Assembly (NCBI GenBank): GCA_009841105.1
Contig: VXMM01000029.1
Coordinates: 1-39,111, forward strand
Direction: 5' to 3'
Origin: Acidimicrobiia bacterium
GTDB taxonomy: Bacteria; Actinomycetota; Acidimicrobiia; Spongiisociales; Spongiisociaceae
DNA: 39,111 nucleotides
Below the pieces are notes generated by a model. It worked only from the letters and a program-made list of their open reading frames with translations, searched no databases and had not been told where the DNA came from. Shown piece after piece: positions 12,233 through 33,320 of this stretch. A program made the translations under genes and the position numbers. Numbering within the stretch: position 1 is the stretch's first letter; the number at the start of each line of letters is the position of its first letter.

Positions 12233-12268
12233 GACGCGCATCGGGGTAGCCGACCGAGGGAGACACCG

Positions 12269-12547
12269 ATGGAACAACCCATCCTCTACAGCCTCAACAC
12301 CGATGCACGAACCCCGACCTGACAGGAGTGCTGCCGGGTGCGGGATTACCTGGAGGCCAACTCCGTCGAGTTCGACGACCGCAACATCCGTCAGAGCGAG
12401 GAAGCTCGCCAGGAGCTACTGGCCCTGACCGGAGACCTGATCGTGCCCTATCTGATCTACGAAGACCGGACGGTCACCGGCTTCGATCCTGAGGGACTCG
12501 ACGCCGTTACCGAGGCGTACCGCGCCGCAACCGCGGTCGTGTCCTGA
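12269..12547 (+). CDS. Glutaredoxin-like protein with in-frame UGA at the redox site (candidate selenoprotein)
   Basis: Reading from ATG 12269 (SD GAGGGAG at 12256-12262), a 92-codon frame runs MEQPILYSLNTDARTPT, UGA (12320-12322), QECCRVRDYLEANSVEF, then on to VPYLIYEDRTVTGFDPEGL. The second half is clearly glutaredoxin-like: the cis-Pro VP, the GFDPEGL end, and C-R-V-R-x-Y-L after the redox site. The UGA falls where the first Cys of CxxC belongs, giving U-Q-E-C. A hairpin at 12331-12355 fits a bacterial SECIS (listed separately). The loop before the redox site is about six residues longer than usual. Without Sec insertion only a 17-residue peptide, or a protein restarting at GTG 12338 that lacks the active site, would be made. 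Pseudogene or sequence error remains possible. Confidence 0.65.
12331..12355 (+). promoter_or_regulatory. Candidate bacterial SECIS hairpin
   Basis: Immediately 3' of the in-frame UGA, CCGGGU (12334-12339) pairs with ACCUGG (12348-12353), with one G-U. C12331-G12355 and U12332-A12354 extend the stem around a bulged G12333. The 8-nt apical loop GCGGGAUU starts with G, and its first base is 18 nt after the UGA. Known bacterial SECIS models ask for a G in the first two loop bases and a loop about 16-37 nt from the UGA, so the fit is good. The hairpin was found by eye and no folding program was run. Confidence 0.5.
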
Positions 12548-12571
12548 GAAGCTCCCGGATCCGAGGTCACC

Positions 12572-12829
12572 GTGTCACATCCTCCAGGTAACTCACTGCA
12601 AGCCGACCAGGGCGCCCGGGTATCCGAACCGGGCACGAGCCTGGAAGAAGGGATCCTCCACCTCATCGAACGGGTCCGTGAAGAGCTCGACTACAGCGAC
12701 GCCAAGGGAGCTAGCGGCTACCGCCTCGGCATGCACGACGGGCTCCGGTTCACCGAGGATGCGCTGGTGAATCTCCTGAATCGCCACGGATACGAGGCTC
12801 GGGCGCGCGCGACCTCCATGGACACCTAG
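12572..12829 (+). CDS. Small conserved-looking hypothetical protein
   Basis: An 85-residue reading frame starting at GTG 12572, with GAGG 5 nt upstream. The N-terminal 25 residues look disordered. The rest is helical and protein-like: LEEGILHLIERVREELDYSDAKGASGYRLGMHDGLRFTEDALVNLLNRHGYEAR. No family is recognised. It lies between the glutaredoxin-like gene (25 nt upstream) and the ABC transporter ATPase (7 nt downstream), so it is probably co-transcribed with both. Confidence 0.6.
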   Translation: MSHPPGNSLQADQGARVSEPGTSLEEGILHLIERVREELDYSDAKGASGYRLGMHDGLRFTEDALVNLLNRHGYEARARATSMDT

Positions 12830-12835
12830 CGGAAA

Positions 12836-13606
12836 GTGAGCCAGCCCAACGGCACCTCCCGGCCGGTCGTCCAGCTACGCAAGATCCACAAGTCGTTCGG
12901 CGCCAACCATGTGCTGAAGGGCATCGACCTGACGGTGGGACAGGGCCAGCACGTGGTGATCTTCGGGCCTTCCGGTTCCGGCAAGTCAACCCTGCTCCGG
13001 ACCGCCAACCTTCTAGAGACCCCAGATTCCGGTTCGGTCTGGTTCGAGGGCAAGGAGTACGGCGCCGGCATCGAAGGGGAAGACCTTCCTCGCGGCAAGG
13101 CTCGACTGCTCCGCCAACAGATCGGCATGGTATTCCAACAGTTCAACCTCTTTCCCCATATCACGGCCCTGGACAACGTGGCGCTTGCTCTCCGACGTGT
13201 GAAGCGGATAAAGCGTGACGAGGCCGAGCACAAGGCCGCCACCTACCTCGACCGGGTAGGCCTGCTCGACAAGCTGGGCGCCTTCCCGTCGCAATTGTCG
13301 GGCGGCCAGCAGCAGCGGGTGGCGATCGCCCGCTCCCTGGTCATGGAACCCAAGGTGATGCTGTTCGACGAGCCCACGTCGGCGCTCGACCCGGAGTTGG
13401 TCGGCGAGGTGCTGGCCGTCATGCGTGACCTGGCTGAGTCGGGTATGACGATGGTGGTAGTCACCCACGAGATGGGGTTCGCCAGGGAAGCCGGCGACCT
13501 GAACATATTCATGGATGAGGGCGTGGTGGTGGAGACCGGGGGGCGGGAGTTGTACGACCACGCCCGGGAGCCCCGAACCCGGGCGTTCCTGCAGGCAATC
13601 CTATGA
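12836..13606 (+). CDS. Polar amino-acid ABC transporter, ATP-binding protein (GlnQ/HisP type)
   Basis: A 256-residue ATPase with Walker [11 protein letters not shown]-loop [10 protein letters not shown], signature LSGGQQQR, Walker B VMLFDEP, D-loop SALDPE and switch His in VVTHEMGF. The FNLFPH stretch and the EVL..M..LA.SGMTM segment are typical of the polar amino-acid uptake (PAAT) group. It starts at GTG 12836 and overlaps the permease start by four bases (13603-13606). The peripheral membrane protein would pair with the permease at 13603 and the binding protein at 14543. Confidence 0.93.
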
Positions 13607-14418
13607 ATCCCTTTCTGGTGATCCCGGTGCTGGCCCAGGCCCGTTTCAGGCCTGAGTTCATCTGGGAGAACCGGGACGTCTTTCTCGGTGGAGTAAGGCT
13701 CACCGTGTTCATCGCCATCGTGGCTTTCGCGCTGGCGACGGTATTAGGCCTGGGGGTCGCTCTCCTGCGCATGTCGAAGAATCGGCTTGTCGCCCCGATC
13801 ATGGCCGCCTACATCAACATCTTCCGGGCTATACCTCTGCTGGTCTTCGTCGTCTTCGTGTACTACGGGATCGCGATCCAGTTCGATGTCAGGATCTCCG
13901 CCATCCAGGCCGGGATCCTCGTTCTCACCCTTCAATACTCAGCCTGGCTCGGCGAGATCTTCCGCGGTGGCATCCAGGCGGTCTCCGACGGGCAGACCCA
14001 GGCGGCCCTGTCGGTGGGTATGAGTCGTCCCCAGACCTTCTTCCGGGTGGTGCTGCCGCAGGCCATCCGCATCGTCATCCCGCCCACGGGCAACATGTTC
14101 ATCGGCATGATCAAGGACTCGTCTCTGGTCTTCATAATCGGTGTACCCGAGCTTTTCCGGGTGAGCAGCGTGATGGCCAACAGGACATTCCGCTACTTCG
14201 AGGTGTATCTCGGCGCGGTTATCTTCTACCTCATTCTCACCACCGCGGCGTATTTCGGAGTGAAATACCTCGAGAAGCGGTTTGCCCTGGTCGACGTCCT
14301 CACTACCAGAGTGAGATCACCCCTCGCCCGACGCAGGGGTGTACGTCTGAGGATGATCCAGGAAGCTGTCGCATCTGAACGTGAGTCCAAATCGTCCGGG
14401 ACGGCTACGGCATTGTAA
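13603..14418 (+). CDS. Polar amino-acid ABC transporter, permease
   Basis: A 271-residue inner-membrane protein of the His/Glu/Gln/Arg permease family. Hydrophobic segments lie at about 29-55, 66-93, 96-110 and 205-222. The coupling EAA loop reads as [20 protein letters not shown] near residues 138-157, and [18 protein letters not shown] is a family block. Residues 230-271 form a basic, probably cytoplasmic tail longer than usual. ATG at 13603 overlaps the ATPase stop, so the genes are coupled. Only one permease gene is present, so it may form a homodimer. Confidence 0.92.
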
Positions 14419-14542
14419 GATGGCTTGTTCGACGTCACATCTCGGACGTCACAACTCACAGATGATGGATGATCTTGGCTTGTCTCACGGTTAGCCGGTC
14501 ACTCGCATGGAAGCACATCGAATCCCTGGAAGGAGACACAGT

Positions 14543-15391
14543 ATGAAGAGCCGCATGAAGTGGCTAGTCCCGGTACTCGCATTAGTAATGCTCGCGGGTG
14601 CCTGCGCGAGCGAGGACGAGGGCGGCGATGGCGGACCGACGGCTGCGGCGCAGGCCGCGGTGGAAGGCAACCTCCTCGACCAGATCAAGGACCGTGGGAC
14701 CCTCCACGTCGGCATGGTCCTCCAATTCCCGCCGCAGATGTACATCGATGACGCAGGGAACCCCGCCGGATACGACGTGGACCTGATGAACATGCTCGCC
14801 GAGGACCTCGGCGTGACGCTCGAAATCTCCAACCTCGAGTTCGACGCGATGATCCCGGGCCTGATCGCCAACCAGTTCGACATGGTGTCGGTCGGTCTCG
14901 TCGGTCGTCCGGCTCGGCTCGAGCAGCTCTGGTTCACATGTCCGTACGTTCCTTACCGCCAGGTGGTCGTGGTCAACAACGACTCGGGAATCAACGACAT
15001 CAGCGAATTGAACAGCAGCGGCGTGACCATGACCGCCCTGATCGGTTCCACCGCGGCCAGCCTCACCGAGACCCGGTTCCCGAACGCGGAACTCGTGGAG
15101 CTCGATCAGGCCCCCGCGTTGCTCGAAGTCGCCTCGGGCAGGGCCGACGCCATCGTCATCGAGGAATACCTCGCCCTCCCGTTCGTGGCCGAGAACCCGA
15201 GCACCAGCGTCCTGAATCCCAACGCGCCGTTCGTCGCGGAGGAGTACGGGGCATGGGCTCTTCCCCGCGGTGAGGTCGTGTGGCTCGAATACCTGAACGG
15301 CTGGCTGGCCTACTACATCTCGAGGGGCACCCTCGACGAGGTCTACGAGCGGCACATCGGCCCGACCGAGGGTATGCCCGCCTGTAACTAG
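14543..15391 (+). CDS. Amino-acid ABC transporter substrate-binding protein (SBP family 3)
   Basis: A 282-residue exported protein. MKSRMKWLVPVLALVML is a signal peptide followed by LAGAC, a near-lipobox (Ala at -3), so it is probably a lipoprotein anchored at Cys21. The mature protein begins with an acidic linker, then GTLHVGMVLQFPPQMYID, GYDVDLMNMLAEDLGV, EFDAMIPGLIANQFDMV and TCPYVPYRQVVVV, all typical of family 3 periplasmic-type binding proteins for polar amino acids. ATG 14543 is set by GGAAGGAG upstream; the in-frame ATG at 14507 would put a basic extension before the signal peptide. It completes the ABC operon. Confidence 0.92.
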   Translation: MKSRMKWLVPVLALVMLAGACASEDEGGDGGPTAAAQAAVEGNLLDQIKDRGTLHVGMVLQFPPQMYIDDAGNPAGYDVDLMNMLAEDLGVTLEISNLEFDAMIPGLIANQFDMVSVGLVGRPARLEQLWFTCPYVPYRQVVVVNNDSGINDISELNSSGVTMTALIGSTAASLTETRFPNAELVELDQAPALLEVASGRADAIVIEEYLALPFVAENPSTSVLNPNAPFVAEEYGAWALPRGEVVWLEYLNGWLAYYISRGTLDEVYERHIGPTEGMPACN

Positions 15392-17649: not shown

Positions 17650-20022
17650 TCAGGGACTCACTTCCACACCGTTGAGCGCTCCCCACACCCGGTGCGGCAG
17701 CACAGGCATGTCGATGTTGCTCACACCCCTGGACCAGAGCGCGTCGATGACGGCGTTGGTGAAAGCGGCCGGAGATCCCACCGTCGCCGACTCGCCTACG
17801 CCCTTCGCCCCGATCGGGTGATGAGGGGAGGGAGTCACCGTCTCGCCCAACTGGTAGCGGGGCGTCTCCCACGCGGTGGGCACCAGGTAGTCCATGAAGT
17901 TCGACCCGATGCAGTTGCCGTCATCGTCGAAGGTGATCCACTGCATGTTCGCCTTGGCGAAGCCCTCGGTGAGACCGCCCGCGATCTGCCCGTCCACGAT
18001 CATCGGGTTGATCCGCACGCCGCAGTCGTCGACCGCCACCATTTCCAGCACCTTCCAGGTGCCGTCACCGGTGTCGACCTCCACCACCACGATGTAGGTC
18101 CCGAACGGGTAGGTCATGTTGGGCGGGTCGTAGTAAGTGACGCCCTCGAGGCCTGCCTCCATGCCTACCGGATGGTTGGTGTAGGCGGCGAAGGCGACAT
18201 CCTGGATGGTGACGCTCTGGTCGGTTCCCTTCACGGTGAACTTCCCGGGCTCCCAGTCCAGGTCCTCCTCGGCGGCCTCCAGCAGGTGGGCGGCCAGCTT
18301 CTGCGCCTTTGCCCGGATCTTCCTGGACACCACCGCCGTGGCCGCCCCACCCACCGGGGTGGAACGCGAGGCGTAGGTGCCGAGGCCGTATGGGGTGTTG
18401 TCGGTGTCGCCGTACATCACCTTGATGTCCGAGTAGGGGATGCCGAGCTCCTCCGCCACGATCTGGGCGAAGGTGGTCTCGTGACCCTGTCCCTGCGTCT
18501 GGACCCCCAGCTTCAGAATGGCCTTGCCGGTCGGATGGATCCGCAACTCGGCGGAGTCGAACATCTTCAGACCCAGGATGTCGTACTGGCGCGAGGGACC
18601 GGCCCCGACGACCTCGGTGAATGAGGCCACGCCAATGCCGATCAGCTTGGAGGCGTCCGGGTCGGAGTTCTGCTCCGCCTGGCGATCCCGCCATCCGTCG
18701 TAACCGATCATCTCCTTGGCCTTGTCCATCGCCCCGTGGTAGTTGCCGGAGTCGTAGACGAACCCGGTCGGGGACAGGTAGGGGAACTGGTCCTCCCTGA
18801 TGAAGTTGAGCGCCCGGAAGTCGGCCGGGTCCATCCCCACCTCACGGGCGGCGTTGTCCACCAACCGCTCGATCAGGTAGGAGGCCTCGGTCACCCGGAA
18901 AGAGCACCGATAGGCAACGCCACCGGGCGCCTTGTTCGTGTAGGCGCCCTTGGCAGTCACATGCGCAGCCGGGAAGTCGTAGCTCCCGGTGCAGATGTGG
19001 AACAGACCGGCCCGGAACTGGGTGGGCTGGGCGTCCGAGAAGAAGGCGCCCTGGTCGGACAGGATGCCGGCCCGCATGGCGGTGATCCGGTTGCTCCCGT
19101 CCAGGGCCAGTTCGGCATGCATGTGGAAGTCGCGGGCGAACCCGGTAGAGATCAGGTTCTCGGTGCGACTCTCTATCCACTTCACCGGCTTCCCGATCAG
19201 AAGCGATGCGGCCGTGGCGACCACGTAGCCCGGATACACCGGCACCTTGTTACCGAAACCGCCTCCGATGTCCTGGGTGACGATCCTGATCTTCTCCTCC
19301 GGAAGCCCGGCCACCAGGGCGAAGACCGTCCTGATGGCATGGGGCGCCTGGCTGGTCATGTAGATCGTGGCCTGGCCGGTGATGGAGTTGACATCCGCCA
19401 CCACCCCGCACGTCTCCAGCGGCGCCGGATGCGAGCGCGGGTAGTGAGTGTCGAGGCTGACCACCCGGGCCGCAGCCGCGAAGGCGGCATCGGTCGAGTC
19501 CTGCTCGCCGGCCTCCCAGGTGTAGGCGACGTTGTCGGTCTGGCCCTCCTTCTCATCCCGGATGAGGGTGCTGGTGGCTAGCGATTGCTGGGGGGTCGTG
19601 ATGGCCTCCAGTTCCTCGTAGTCCACATCGATGTGCGACAGGGCATCATGGGCGATGTAGGGATCGGTGGCGATCACGGCCGCCACCTCCTGGCCCTGGA
19701 ACCGGACCTTGTCGGTAGCCAGCACCGCCTGGGTGTCACCCGAGAGGGTCGGCATCCAGGCGAGGCCGTGGGCGGCCAGGGCTTCGCCGGTGACCACCGC
19801 CAGCACCCCTTCGATCTCCATCGCCGCTGACGAGTCGATCGAGTTGATCGTGGCGTGGGCCACGGGGGAACGGAGGATGGCCATATGGAGCATCCCCGGA
19901 AGGTTCAGATCATCCATATAGCTGCCCGCGCCCCGGATAAACCGGTCGTCCTCCTTGCGGCGGACGGAGTGCCCGATACCCCCGACTTCGGGGCTGGTGC
20001 GTGGTTCGTGAACCGTGGTCAT
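17650..20022 (-). CDS. coxL: Aerobic carbon monoxide dehydrogenase, large (Mo) subunit, form I
   Basis: A 790-residue molybdenum hydroxylase large subunit, the expected length. The active-site loop reads AYRCSFR (370-376) with Cys373; AYxCSFR is the known signature of form I CO dehydrogenases, whereas form II has AYxGAGR. Other marks are QDIGGGFGNKVPVYPGY (250-266), TNKAPGGVAYRC, and KGVGESATVGSPAAF near the C-terminus with the catalytic Glu. It oxidises CO to CO2 at a Mo-Cu centre and passes electrons to CoxS. ATG 20022 follows the coxS stop by 1 nt, consistent with the coxM-S-L order. Many actinobacteria use this enzyme to scavenge trace CO. Confidence 0.95.
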   Translation of the reverse strand: MTTVHEPRTSPEVGGIGHSVRRKEDDRFIRGAGSYMDDLNLPGMLHMAILRSPVAHATINSIDSSAAMEIEGVLAVVTGEALAAHGLAWMPTLSGDTQAVLATDKVRFQGQEVAAVIATDPYIAHDALSHIDVDYEELEAITTPQQSLATSTLIRDEKEGQTDNVAYTWEAGEQDSTDAAFAAAARVVSLDTHYPRSHPAPLETCGVVADVNSITGQATIYMTSQAPHAIRTVFALVAGLPEEKIRIVTQDIGGGFGNKVPVYPGYVVATAASLLIGKPVKWIESRTENLISTGFARDFHMHAELALDGSNRITAMRAGILSDQGAFFSDAQPTQFRAGLFHICTGSYDFPAAHVTAKGAYTNKAPGGVAYRCSFRVTEASYLIERLVDNAAREVGMDPADFRALNFIREDQFPYLSPTGFVYDSGNYHGAMDKAKEMIGYDGWRDRQAEQNSDPDASKLIGIGVASFTEVVGAGPSRQYDILGLKMFDSAELRIHPTGKAILKLGVQTQGQGHETTFAQIVAEELGIPYSDIKVMYGDTDNTPYGLGTYASRSTPVGGAATAVVSRKIRAKAQKLAAHLLEAAEEDLDWEPGKFTVKGTDQSVTIQDVAFAAYTNHPVGMEAGLEGVTYYDPPNMTYPFGTYIVVVEVDTGDGTWKVLEMVAVDDCGVRINPMIVDGQIAGGLTEGFAKANMQWITFDDDGNCIGSNFMDYLVPTAWETPRYQLGETVTPSPHHPIGAKGVGESATVGSPAAFTNAVIDALWSRGVSNIDMPVLPHRVWGALNGVEVSP

Positions 20023-20023
20023 T

Positions 20024-20485
20024 TCAGCTCCCCTCTCCGCCCGCGGCCTGGATGGCAGTCACGATATTCATGTAGCCGGTGCAGCGGCAGATGTTGCCGG
20101 ATATGGCCCAGCGGACCTCTTCGTCGGTCGGTTCCGGATTCTCCTCGAGCAGCGCGCTGCCCACCAGCATCATTCCCGGTGTGCAGAAGCCGCACTGCAG
20201 GCCGTGGTGCTCCTTGAAGGCGGCCTGGACCGGATGGAGTTCGCCACCCTCGGCCAAGCCCTCCACGGTCTTCACCTCGCTGCCGTCGGCCTGGACCGCC
20301 AGCACGGTGCAGGATTTGACCGGACGGCCGTCCAGCAGGACGGTGCAAGCACCGCACGAGGAGGTGTCACAGCCGATATGGGTTCCGGTCAGGCCGGCGT
20401 CCGAGCGGATGAAGTCGACCAGCAGGCGCCTGGGCTCGACATCCCGGGTCTCGCTGGCGCCGTTGATGTTGACGGTGATCTGCAT
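20024..20485 (-). CDS. coxS: Aerobic carbon monoxide dehydrogenase, small [2Fe-2S] subunit
   Basis: A 153-residue protein carrying two [2Fe-2S] clusters. The plant-type ferredoxin cluster uses Cys39, Cys44, Cys47 and Cys59 (GCDTSSCGAC and KSC). The C-terminal helical cluster uses Cys98, Cys101, Cys133 and Cys135 (QCGFCTPGM and CRCTGY). It passes electrons from the CoxL molybdenum site to the FAD of CoxM. ATG 20485 overlaps the last base of the coxM stop (TGATG), so the two genes are translationally coupled. Confidence 0.95.
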   Translation of the reverse strand: MQITVNINGASETRDVEPRRLLVDFIRSDAGLTGTHIGCDTSSCGACTVLLDGRPVKSCTVLAVQADGSEVKTVEGLAEGGELHPVQAAFKEHHGLQCGFCTPGMMLVGSALLEENPEPTDEEVRWAISGNICRCTGYMNIVTAIQAAGGEGS

Positions 20486-21360
20486 CAGCCCTCCCCTCTT
20501 GCCTGGGCCAGCGCTTGGGCGAACCCGCGCCTGGTGTACTCGGCTACCACGGCCCGCTTGTACTCGGCCGGACCCCGGACGTTGTCATCGGGGTCACAAG
20601 CACTGGCCGCGATGGCGGCGGCCTCGGCGAACAGTTCCGGTCCGGGGACCTGCCCGACCATCATGTCCTCCGCCTCCGTGACCTTCAGGTTGTGGCCGTA
20701 GACGGCGGTCAGGCCCAGGCCCGCCTCCGCCACGTTGCCCGAGCCGTCGAGTACCAGATGGGTGGCCACTCCTACGGTGGCGTAGTCGCCGACCTTGCGC
20801 TCCAGCTTGAGGTAAGCGCCCCCGGCCGATCCCTGGTACGCGGGGATCCGGACCTCGGTGACCATCTCCCCGGAGTCGAGCGAGTTGGTGAAGAAGTCAA
20901 CTATGAAGTCCGTGATGGGGATCACCCGCTCGCCCGACGACGATCGGGCCACCACCGAGGCGCCCACCGCCAGCATCACCGAGTTCCAGTCGCCCTCGGG
21001 ATCGCAGTGGGCCACGGACCCGCACAAGGTTCCCCGGTTCCGCACCAGCGGATCGGACACCCAGGGCGCGGCCGAGGCCAGGGTGTGGTTGTGGCGGCTC
21101 ACCGCCTCCGATGAGGCTACGTCGGCGTGACGAGCCAGCGCGCCCACCGCCAGATGGCCGTTGGACTCGCTGATGTGTGCCAACTCGTTGACGCCGTTGA
21201 TGTCCACGAGATGGCCGGGGGCCGCCAGCCGGAGCTTCATCATGGGGATAAGGCTCTGGCCTCCGGCTAGAACCCGGCCCTCGTCGCCCAGTTCAGCCAG
21301 GGTGGCCAGGGCCTCCTCGAGACTGCCGGGCGCCGAGTATTCGAACGCGGATGGATACAC
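20485..21360 (-). CDS. coxM: Aerobic carbon monoxide dehydrogenase, medium (FAD) subunit
   Basis: A 291-residue FAD-binding subunit. FAD contacts are visible in AGGQSLIPMMKLRLA (residues 32-46) and in LVRNRGTLCGSVAHCDPEGDW (about 105-125). The C-terminal CO-dehydrogenase flavoprotein domain begins near EMVTEVRIPAY. It takes electrons from CoxS and donates them to the respiratory chain. GTG 21360 has a strong SD (AGGAGGTGAGG, 21364-21374). It is the first gene of coxM-coxS-coxL-xdhC(YHS), so the promoter should lie in 21375-21509. Confidence 0.94.
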   Translation of the reverse strand: MYPSAFEYSAPGSLEEALATLAELGDEGRVLAGGQSLIPMMKLRLAAPGHLVDINGVNELAHISESNGHLAVGALARHADVASSEAVSRHNHTLASAAPWVSDPLVRNRGTLCGSVAHCDPEGDWNSVMLAVGASVVARSSSGERVIPITDFIVDFFTNSLDSGEMVTEVRIPAYQGSAGGAYLKLERKVGDYATVGVATHLVLDGSGNVAEAGLGLTAVYGHNLKVTEAEDMMVGQVPGPELFAEAAAIAASACDPDDNVRGPAEYKRAVVAEYTRRGFAQALAQARGEG

Positions 21361-30244: not shown

Positions 30245-31015
30245 TCAGCCCCGTTCGGACAGGGCGGCGGCGAGCTCGTCCGTGCCGAGCGACTCCTTGC
30301 GGACCCGCAGATCGAGGTAGATGACAGCACCCACAGCGGCGCTCAGCGGAATCGACAGAAGGGTGGCTACGTGCTGGACAAGGGAACCGGCCAATTCACC
30401 GCTCACTCCCAGGACAGGCGAGAGGATGAGCCAGATCACGGCCGAGACGATCCCAAACACGATGATCGAGAGGATTATGACAAGCAAGACGGCGCCGAAC
30501 ACCCGCCAGCGCTCTCCCGCCACCAGGCGCCACGACCGCTTAATACTCTCCATCGGGCCGACACCTTCGATAATCAGAGCCTCCCAGGCCACCGCGAGAG
30601 ACACGGCAAGGAAGATCCCCGGGATGATCAAGAGCACGAATCCGATGGCGACCAGCACCCCGGCCACGATCGTCGCCCCGATGATCGCGAGGGTTCTACG
30701 GAGTCCGATCCTCGTCGCTCGCCGCCAGTCGGACGGGACGCCTGCATACGCTTCGGCCGCCACCAGGACGCCGGCCACGCTCGCCACAAGGGTGCCGATC
30801 GAGCCTGCGATGTACCCGAGCCAACCGATGGGAGACGTACACGTCGTCGTGCCCCCCGCGTCGAGGCCGCAGCCCCCGACCAGGCTGACGAGGAAGGGGA
30901 TGGACACGAGCATCAGCGCGATGGCGAACATCGGGCCGAAGCGGCGCCGGTAGACGGTGAACGTGGCGTCGACGATCTCGCCGACACCGAGCGGACGCAG
31001 TTGTAGTTGAGCCAT
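30245..31015 (-). CDS. Multi-spanning membrane protein (GDPD membrane-domain-like)
   Basis: A 256-residue protein with an amphipathic start, LRPLGVGEIVDATFTVYRRRFGPMF, typical of an actinobacterial family annotated as glycerophosphoryl diester phosphodiesterase membrane domain. About six transmembrane segments follow at roughly 30-48, 65-88, 110-140, 143-152, 170-198 and 218-237. No catalytic GDPD motif is present, so the enzymatic name should not be taken literally. ATG 31015 lies back to back with the region upstream of the P450 fusion gene. The role is unknown. Confidence 0.75.
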   Translation of the reverse strand: MAQLQLRPLGVGEIVDATFTVYRRRFGPMFAIALMLVSIPFLVSLVGGCGLDAGGTTTCTSPIGWLGYIAGSIGTLVASVAGVLVAAEAYAGVPSDWRRATRIGLRRTLAIIGATIVAGVLVAIGFVLLIIPGIFLAVSLAVAWEALIIEGVGPMESIKRSWRLVAGERWRVFGAVLLVIILSIIVFGIVSAVIWLILSPVLGVSGELAGSLVQHVATLLSIPLSAAVGAVIYLDLRVRKESLGTDELAAALSERG

Positions 31016-31286
31016 GGCGCCAGCCTACCGGACGGCCACAGCCCTGTCCATGGTTGACCCCCAACTGTACCGGATCGAAAGACCGACAATCGGACCTGGG
31101 CCGCCGTTGCTGCGCCCGGACGCGCCAGAACGGCTGCCGGCCGTGACTCCGGAGGCGTATCGCGACCAGCCCGGCCCTATGGAGGCCACCGCTACCTCAC
31201 CGGCCCGGCCCGATGCCGTCCCTTATGCTTCCGAACAGCCCTACATGCTAAGGTTTCGGTGGTTGGACAACGGAGGGGCCAGACCG

Positions 31287-33320
31287 ATGACTCTGACCGC
31301 TGACCGTGCGGCCACTCATACGCTGAGCCTGCTAGACGAACTCGTCCTCACCCTGCTCAATGAGGAGAGCGGCTACTTCCGGCAGGTTCCCGGCTGGAAC
31401 CTGAACTGCGCCGTCATCGGGGGCGTGCTGGGCGAGCTTTCACTTCTATCCCGTATCGACACGGATATGGACTCTCTTATCCTGCTGGATCGAACGAAAA
31501 CGGGAGACCCTGCCCTTGATCCAATCCTCGAGGAAATCGCCGCAGAACCGGTGCAACGGAACGCCCGTTACTGGATCGAGCGCCTCGCTCCCCGGGCAGA
31601 TTCGATCATAGACCTGACCTTGGAGCGTCTGGTCGATCTGAAGATCCTCCGCCACCACGACGGCGATTTCTGGTCGCTGGCCCCTAGCGGATCGCAGACA
31701 GACTCGTACGCCAGAATCGGAGACAGCACTGCCGTTGACTTCGTGAAGACACGCCTCAGTAGAGCGATCTTCGCCAACGAGATTCCAGACCCCAGAGACA
31801 TCATCATTATCTGTCTCATCAACACATGCGACGTTCTCCGCTACATATTCGAACTCGATGACGAAGCGGAGCAGCGTGTCGAAATCATCCGCAAGATGGA
31901 TTTGATCGGCCGTTCCATCGCCGCTGCCGTTAGCCAAAACATCGCCGGACACTTGTTCAGGCACTCCACTCTAGCCAAGCCCATCCCGGTTGTCCCGCTA
32001 CGCAAGTTTTTGCTCAATCGTCATGCCCGTGACGGCAATATTCCTGCGCTCTTCGCAGAGCTGGCAGAGGCCTATGGACCGGTGTTCAAGATCCGCCCAC
32101 CGTTCGCCGATCCGATACTTTTTCTGGCCGGACCTGAGATAAATCACTGGGTACATCGTCACGGACGCATGTACCTAAGGGCCAGAGACTATCTGGAGGA
32201 CTTTGAGAAGATATACGGAGGATCAGGGATATTACCTACTCTGGATGGTGCCGATCACTTCCGGTATCGTAAGTCGATGCAACCAGCCTATTCGCGCTCG
32301 AGACTGGAAGGCCAACTAGACGAGTACTACTCGAATGTGCGGAGCCATATAGCATCCTGGTCTGCAGGCGAAACCCTTCCGGCAAAAGACACGTGTAGGC
32401 GGTTAGTTAACGCGGCTCTGTCACCACTTACTGTGAGCATTGATACTCAGGATCTTGTCGACGACATGCACAAATACAAGGAACGAGCCCTCCAGACTCA
32501 CGTCATCAGGAACCTGCCCAAGTTCATGCTGTACACACCGGGAATGAGGCGCCGAGCGAAGTTGCTAGGTGAGGTCGTTGAGCGCGTCCAGAGTGTCCAC
32601 ACACCCGCCCAGAGAGCGGGATGTCCTCGGGACCTGGCTGACGACCTGCTGAGCATGCACACTAGCGATCGCCAGTTCCTCCCGGAGTCGAATCTGCCCT
32701 TCGTATTCTCCGCGCCGCTGATAGCCAGCATGTATGTGGGTGATCAGCTTGGCTTCCTCCTCCACGCGATGGTGTCACAGCCTGCGCTCTACGAGAGGAT
32801 CCGCATTGAAGCCGATGCCATGTTTGCCAACGGGGACCCGGGCCGCAAGGAAATCACGGGACCGGGCACCGACGTCACCCACCGCTTCATCTTGGAATGC
32901 ATGCGCCTCTACCCGATCGTACCGGCGTCTTTCCGGAACGTGATGAATACGTGCGTAGTGGAAGGATACGAACTACCTGAAGGGGCTCGGGTCGTTATAG
33001 CCCAGACAGCCACTCACTTCATGGAGGGCTCCTTCCCCGATCCCTTCACGTTCGACATCGACCGCTACCTGGCCCCGCGCAAGGAACACCTAGGGACGAC
33101 ATACGCACCCTACGGCCTGGGGACACACACATGTCTCGGATCCCGGGTCACGTCACTACAGCTGGTGATCAATCTGCTGATGCTGACGCACTACTTCACG
33201 CTTGAGATCTCCCCTGCCAAGCAAGAGCACAAGCCGAAGATCAGCGCGTTTCCATCGGCATCCGTGAACAAGAAGCTGAAGTTCATCATCACTGAGCAGA
33301 GGCACGAACTGCCGGTGTAA
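31287..33320 (+). CDS. GPP34 (Golgi phosphoprotein 3-like) domain fused to cytochrome P450
   Basis: A 677-residue protein. Residues 10-215 form a GPP34 domain (HTLSLLDELVLTLLNEESGYF, AVIGGVLGELSLLSRID, LTLERLVDLKILRHHDGDFWSL, RDIIIICLINTCDVLRYIF). Residues about 235-670 are a P450: EYYSNV in the C-helix region, ExxR as ECMR (537-540) and a heme loop YGLGTHTCLG with Cys616. The I-helix reads YVGDQLG: the acid Asp486 is present but the usual Thr is Gln487. ATG 31287 with GGAGGGG 8 nt upstream is chosen; the open frame reaches 31014 but that extension looks non-coding. Codon third positions are visibly more A/T-rich than in neighbours, a hint of transfer. The substrate is unknown. Confidence 0.85.
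   Translation: MTLTADRAATHTLSLLDELVLTLLNEESGYFRQVPGWNLNCAVIGGVLGELSLLSRIDTDMDSLILLDRTKTGDPALDPILEEIAAEPVQRNARYWIERLAPRADSIIDLTLERLVDLKILRHHDGDFWSLAPSGSQTDSYARIGDSTAVDFVKTRLSRAIFANEIPDPRDIIIICLINTCDVLRYIFELDDEAEQRVEIIRKMDLIGRSIAAAVSQNIAGHLFRHSTLAKPIPVVPLRKFLLNRHARDGNIPALFAELAEAYGPVFKIRPPFADPILFLAGPEINHWVHRHGRMYLRARDYLEDFEKIYGGSGILPTLDGADHFRYRKSMQPAYSRSRLEGQLDEYYSNVRSHIASWSAGETLPAKDTCRRLVNAALSPLTVSIDTQDLVDDMHKYKERALQTHVIRNLPKFMLYTPGMRRRAKLLGEVVERVQSVHTPAQRAGCPRDLADDLLSMHTSDRQFLPESNLPFVFSAPLIASMYVGDQLGFLLHAMVSQPALYERIRIEADAMFANGDPGRKEITGPGTDVTHRFILECMRLYPIVPASFRNVMNTCVVEGYELPEGARVVIAQTATHFMEGSFPDPFTFDIDRYLAPRKEHLGTTYAPYGLGTHTCLGSRVTSLQLVINLLMLTHYFTLEISPAKQEHKPKISAFPSASVNKKLKFIITEQRHELPV

Follow-up and report, generated by a model that had tools for sequence, protein, structure and literature searches.

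In redoxins with a UxxC active site, the selenolate attacks first, and the cysteine at the second site (C21 in the protein described here) then achieves resolution. Native cGrx1, a glutaredoxin of Clostridium (Alkaliphilus) oremlandii, reportedly carries selenocysteine (Sec), and its crystallized form carries Cys. Crystal structures of this protein (PDB 7c10, 7c12) represent the same glutaredoxin fold as that considered below, with a dithiol-type motif. A review, which cites Kim 2011 for the Sec in native cGrx1, tabulates glutaredoxins with UxxC among the established selenoproteins, above the merely predicted ones (PMC13188914). Other described relatives are the YruB-family glutaredoxins (TIGR02196), the NrdH redoxins (TIGR02194), the Uxx-star families (NF041212, NF041211, NF047338), which likewise consist of short Grx-like (seleno)proteins whose active site has Sec, and the mycoredoxins (TIGR02200), also actinobacterial glutaredoxins.

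Here we describe a gene at 12269-12544 of a 39,111-nt stretch of DNA from an Acidimicrobiia bacterium (contig VXMM01000029.1 of assembly GCA_009841105.1; hereafter, the window), which very likely encodes a Sec-containing glutaredoxin of the NrdH/YruB-like, UxxC type. We computed its family, the UGA at the active site, the Sec machinery, conservation, RNA structure, the co-occurrence and fusion of a partner gene, and the operon.

The product matched Glutaredoxin (PF00462) with 42.1 bits against a cut-off of 22.9 (E 1e-10), and the match spans the UGA. A fold search with the predicted structure retrieved Grx and NrdH structures, in agreement with the glutaredoxin fold read from motifs in an earlier first-pass annotation of the window. 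The closest solved relative by sequence was cGrx1 (7c10; 37% identity in the structure alignment, TMt 0.88 in the fold search), which was also among the best fold matches. The cGrx1 protein lacks the six-residue insert LNTDAR, the second Cys and, in its chain, the helical partner described below. The fold and the VPxL...VxGFD region, which extends to VxGFDP, are shared with NrdH- and YruB-type redoxins. The scores were 51.3 bits for TIGR02196 (cut-off 88.55) and 26.8 bits for TIGR02194 (cut-off 85.75), both below threshold, and the distant homologues found here have CxxC instead of UxxC. The Uxx-star models NF041212 (32.8 bits, cut-off 66), NF041211 (24.4, cut-off 100), NF047338 (21.2, cut-off 97) and NF041114 (13.3, cut-off 72) and mycoredoxin TIGR02200 (21 bits, cut-off 89.5) also fell short, and the Sec-glutaredoxin group as a whole reached the cut-off of none of the named NCBIfam glutaredoxin or Uxx-star families. 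Judged from the NCBIfam models and PMC13188914, Sec-glutaredoxins are already known, and what is new here is an invariant insert preceding the active site, the UxxCC motif and an obligate partner. No plasmid homologue was found.

A glutaredoxin frame with UGA at the active site

Direct reading and translation of the sequence placed the ATG at 12269, preceded by a plausible Shine-Dalgarno-like AGGGAG (12257-12262), and gave a frame of 92 codons on the + strand with its stop TGA at 12545-12547. The sole interruption of this frame is a TGA at codon 18 (12320-12322), followed by Q-E-C-C. If the UGA is read as Sec, it supplies the first residue of U-Q-E-C and the active-site motif is UxxCC, in which codons 21-22 (12329-12334) encode the putative resolving C21 and an extra C22, both invariant in the orthologues. 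The insert LNTDAR (codons 9-14, 12293-12310) lies between strand 1 and the active site. In an alignment of 14 orthologues (identity 68-92%), its consensus was LNT(D/E)AR with N10, T11 and R14 invariant. It is absent from the Cys homologues, whose match begins just before the active site. The first-pass annotation had proposed a continuous frame with Shine-Dalgarno sequence and ATG broken only at codon 18, U-x-x-C at the CxxC site of glutaredoxins and an unusually long loop before U. The frame and its start signals were seen again, the loop proved to be the conserved insert, and the residue at the active-site column is taken up below.

Close orthologues were present in 13 genomes of the same order besides that of the window (67-91% identity), and all 13 have TGA; the weaker matches in this order were ordinary CxxC glutaredoxins without the stop. 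The phylum sample contained one further orthologue, from a different family (G403/L064), and a scan of named genomes gave 16 loci in metagenome-assembled genomes labeled Acidimicrobiia or unnamed bacterium, five of them new. In total, 20 distinct orthologous sequences were collected, so that at least 20 related uncultured bacteria have the gene, and TGA followed by QECC was found in 20 of 20. A Cys version of this family was not found among the orthologues in the order, phylum-sample and named-genome searches. At the U18 column, distant glutaredoxins retrieved by these searches have a Cys, the first of CxxC, for example in STPTCPYC..VKDYL. Thus, a UGA conserved across species stands at the position of the catalytic Cys, as is expected of a bacterial selenoprotein. 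In every pair with a computable dS, dN was well below it both 5' and 3' of the UGA. After the UGA, the only plausible codon for a translational restart is GTG at codon 24, which is GTA, GTC or GTT in other orthologues, and a conserved alternative start 3' of the UGA was not found among the compared orthologues. Chance is excluded chiefly by comparison: the TGA persists in all 20 distinct orthologues, and dN stays well under dS wherever the latter could be calculated.

The frame is formally interrupted, as it would be if the UGA were a true stop in a decayed glutaredoxin gene or a product of sequencing or assembly error. The first-pass annotation had singled out a read error, frame damage in homologues and the residue aligned with U18 as points to examine. 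Codon 18 is TGA in each of 20 distinct genomes that were assembled separately, and such independent copies refute an error. Decay is refuted by purifying selection downstream of the UGA, and the orthologues retain the TGA with no other damage to the frame. We therefore regard a true stop as hardly credible.

The stem-loop and the selenocysteine machinery

A SECIS-like stem-loop occupies 12320-12368, with a minimum free energy (MFE) of -24.2 kcal/mol and a z score of -3.67 against synonymous recoding. In its upper hairpin (12334-12353), CCGGGU (12334-12339) and ACCUGG (12348-12353) form a stem closed by an 8-nt loop, as the first-pass annotation had described. The MFE fold adds one G-U pair, which extends the stem to 7 bp and shortens the loop to 6 nt (CGGGAU), at a distance of 18 nt from the UGA. 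The full structure is larger than described there; both the UGA and GGAGUGC are base-paired with positions further 3', up to 12368. Bacterial SECIS models call for a loop of 3-9 nt, a stem of 4-16 bp, a G in the first two loop positions and a distance of 16-37 nt from the UGA (PMC13188914). The hairpin conforms in its loop, 7-bp stem and 18-nt spacing, as had been noted at first reading, but 7.6% of all TGAs in the GC-rich window score as well, so that the fit to the model alone proves little. The bare pattern match was dropped as stand-alone evidence, as 67% of the window's TGAs satisfy the minimal model.

The hairpin becomes improbable only once the protein sequence is kept constant. We used a protein-preserving null, in which synonymous codons were redrawn for the same protein, and the hairpin was significant against it. 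Among the 20 orthologues, z scores ranged from -1.3 to -4.7 and were below -2 in 18; two loci (L056 and L059) showed no clear difference from the null. Scanning along the gene in nine orthologues gave a mean z of -3.3 for the segment starting exactly at codon 18, -2.2 to -2.5 for those starting at codons 16, 19 and 22, and -0.6 to +0.4 elsewhere. Synonymous differences were 0.24 at codons 19-34 and 0.13 at codons 35-43 versus 0.46 on either side. The orthologues show two registers of the upper stem, and covariation tests in both yielded little because the region hardly varies. In the register of the window, a single pair had both of its partners changed, which did not exceed the shuffled controls. 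The fit to the bacterial model and the z scores at the UGA suggest that a SECIS element is situated just after it, as in bacterial selenoproteins generally. It should be mentioned that the low synonymous variation at codons 35-43 (12371-12397) lies 3' of the hairpin, which does not explain it; a further RNA element may be present there, or the footprint of SelB may be longer.

The parent genome (3.05 Mb, 97.5% complete) contains the whole Sec machinery, the presence of which the first-pass annotation had named as a point to verify: a tRNA-Sec with anticodon TCA (UCA; 77 bits with the RF01852 model), adjoining selA and selB, and selD. The genes expected for a bacterial selenoprotein are thus in place, and every check that the first-pass annotation had named came out in favor of its reading. 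The selD gene has an in-frame TGA of its own, at GGGU (L025, 1501-2427; G000:C50), and is itself likely a selenoprotein gene. Across the order, selA was above the cut-off in 110 of 138 genomes and in 13 of the 14 that hold the Sec-glutaredoxin; since selA is common in the order, this co-occurrence says little. The exception, G033 (L034), rated 96% complete, has the TGA-bearing glutaredoxin and gave no match to selA, probably owing to an assembly gap.

A reassigned code, in which UGA would mean Trp or another amino acid, or leaky read-through would equally leave the frame open. Yet TGA serves as the normal stop of the glutaredoxin gene itself and of the neighboring ATPase gene, codon 18 corresponds to the catalytic Cys of the homologues, and the genome combines complete Sec machinery with the SECIS-like structure. 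Decoding of this UGA as something other than Sec is accordingly very improbable.

The predicted helical partner and the ABC importer operon

The gene that follows (12572-12829, + strand), which is absent from the first-pass annotation, encodes a protein of 85 amino acids with no match in Pfam or NCBIfam. Within the order, its distribution over 138 genomes matches that of the TGA-bearing orthologue exactly: both are present in the same 14, and the remaining 124 lack the partner gene. Of the phylum sample, G000 and G403 alone have it. In five loci (L058 and L060-L063), it forms the C-terminal domain of the glutaredoxin protein. This co-occurrence and fusion mark it as an obligate partner. The protein is predicted to be a two-helix hairpin (AF2 pLDDT 83), a fold search with it gave no significant match, and its strongly conserved motif is AKG...R.G.HDGLRF..DA...LL. 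In the predicted structure of the fusion, the glutaredoxin domain is joined to the hairpin by a linker of low confidence. In the window, the terminal UGA of the glutaredoxin gene is in frame with the partner, which begins eight codons later (12545-12572 region), and a second read-through at this codon would yield a fused form like that of L060-L063. This arrangement is probably due to chance, because close relatives are out of frame there.

The pair is followed on the + strand by genes for a polar amino-acid ABC transporter ATPase (12836-13606), an ABC permease (13603-14418) and a family-3 extracellular solute-binding lipoprotein (14507-15391, start probably 14543; PF00497, E 1e-27). In NCBIfam, the ATPase and the permease were closest to subunits of cystine transporters (TcyN for the ATPase). 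Scores for TcyN-type importers were below the cut-off for the ATPase (290 versus 406 bits), the permease (158.6 versus 300) and the solute-binding protein (76.4 versus 312), and the class is therefore given as polar amino acid, with cystine as a candidate substrate. Nearest solved relatives of the solute-binding protein were amino-acid binding proteins and cyclohexadienyl dehydratases. Elsewhere in the window, one ORF of 768 residues (31014-33320) has the unusual combination of a GPP34 (Golgi phosphoprotein 3) match at residues 106-306 and a cytochrome P450 match at 521-746, and molybdenum hydroxylase genes (large subunit, FAD subunit) lie on the - strand at 17650-21360.

The order of pair, ATPase, permease and family-3 solute-binding protein recurs in the loci long enough to tell, except for the fused loci and L064, where no importer adjoins. 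A cystine role is therefore not general, and these exceptions would suit a role unrelated to transport, in which the Sec-glutaredoxin and its partner would serve as reductants of a protein in the cell, with the ABC operon simply adjacent. Against this stand the other loci, in which the importer does follow the pair, and L055, where the gene order has changed (partner-ATPase-permease-SBP-Grx) yet the set stayed together. Weighing both, we see a non-transport role as a real possibility.

The extra invariant Cys22 and the similarity, below cut-off, to the Uxx-star models raise another reading: the protein would be a selenoprotein, but its UxxCC would be a binding site for a metal or a metalloid, a role suggested for UXX-star proteins, and the partner and ABC proteins would form a trafficking module. 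Possible metal-ligand roles of the UXX-star Sec have been mentioned (PMC13188914). However, the best matches are models of the redoxin type (YruB/NrdH) and cGrx1, a dithiol redoxin, and the ABC subunits resemble importers of amino acids, not metal transporters. Metal binding thus appears unlikely, and we return to the Sec-containing redoxin.

Proposed role and significance

What follows is inferred from the above, namely the insertion of Sec, the catalytic role and the identity of reductant and substrate. SelB with Sec-tRNA would read the UGA of codon 18, directed by the stem-loop 3' of it. The selenolate of U18 would attack a disulfide or a related oxidized group, and C21 would resolve the mixed selenenylsulfide. 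Re-reduction might proceed via thioredoxin reductase or a mycothiol-type pool; a TrxR gene in the genome scored above the cut-off, and an MshA-like gene scored below it. The glutaredoxin presumably works jointly with the small helical product of 12572-12829, which is its C-terminal domain in some relatives and probably positions it on a partner.

In the operon, to which the pair belongs in most genomes, the most likely job would be to reduce an imported disulfide such as cystine; alternatively, the protein may keep the transporter or its product reduced. We put forward a role in disulfide import only tentatively. The more specific picture is of a selenium-dependent redox module, in which a dedicated helical adaptor would couple an obligate-Sec glutaredoxin to the amino-acid ABC importer and a disulfide, whether cystine, selenocystine or a thiol conjugate, would be reduced as it is taken up; this is speculative and rather doubtful as it stands.

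A standard gene caller would probably cut the gene at the UGA, and the active site would be lost in every relative. The Acidimicrobiia add a Sec-only subfamily of glutaredoxins, for which no Cys form was found. Fusion and shared distribution give a first functional handle on an undescribed family of small proteins. If the link to the importer is true, a role for selenium in the uptake of nutrient disulfides becomes testable.
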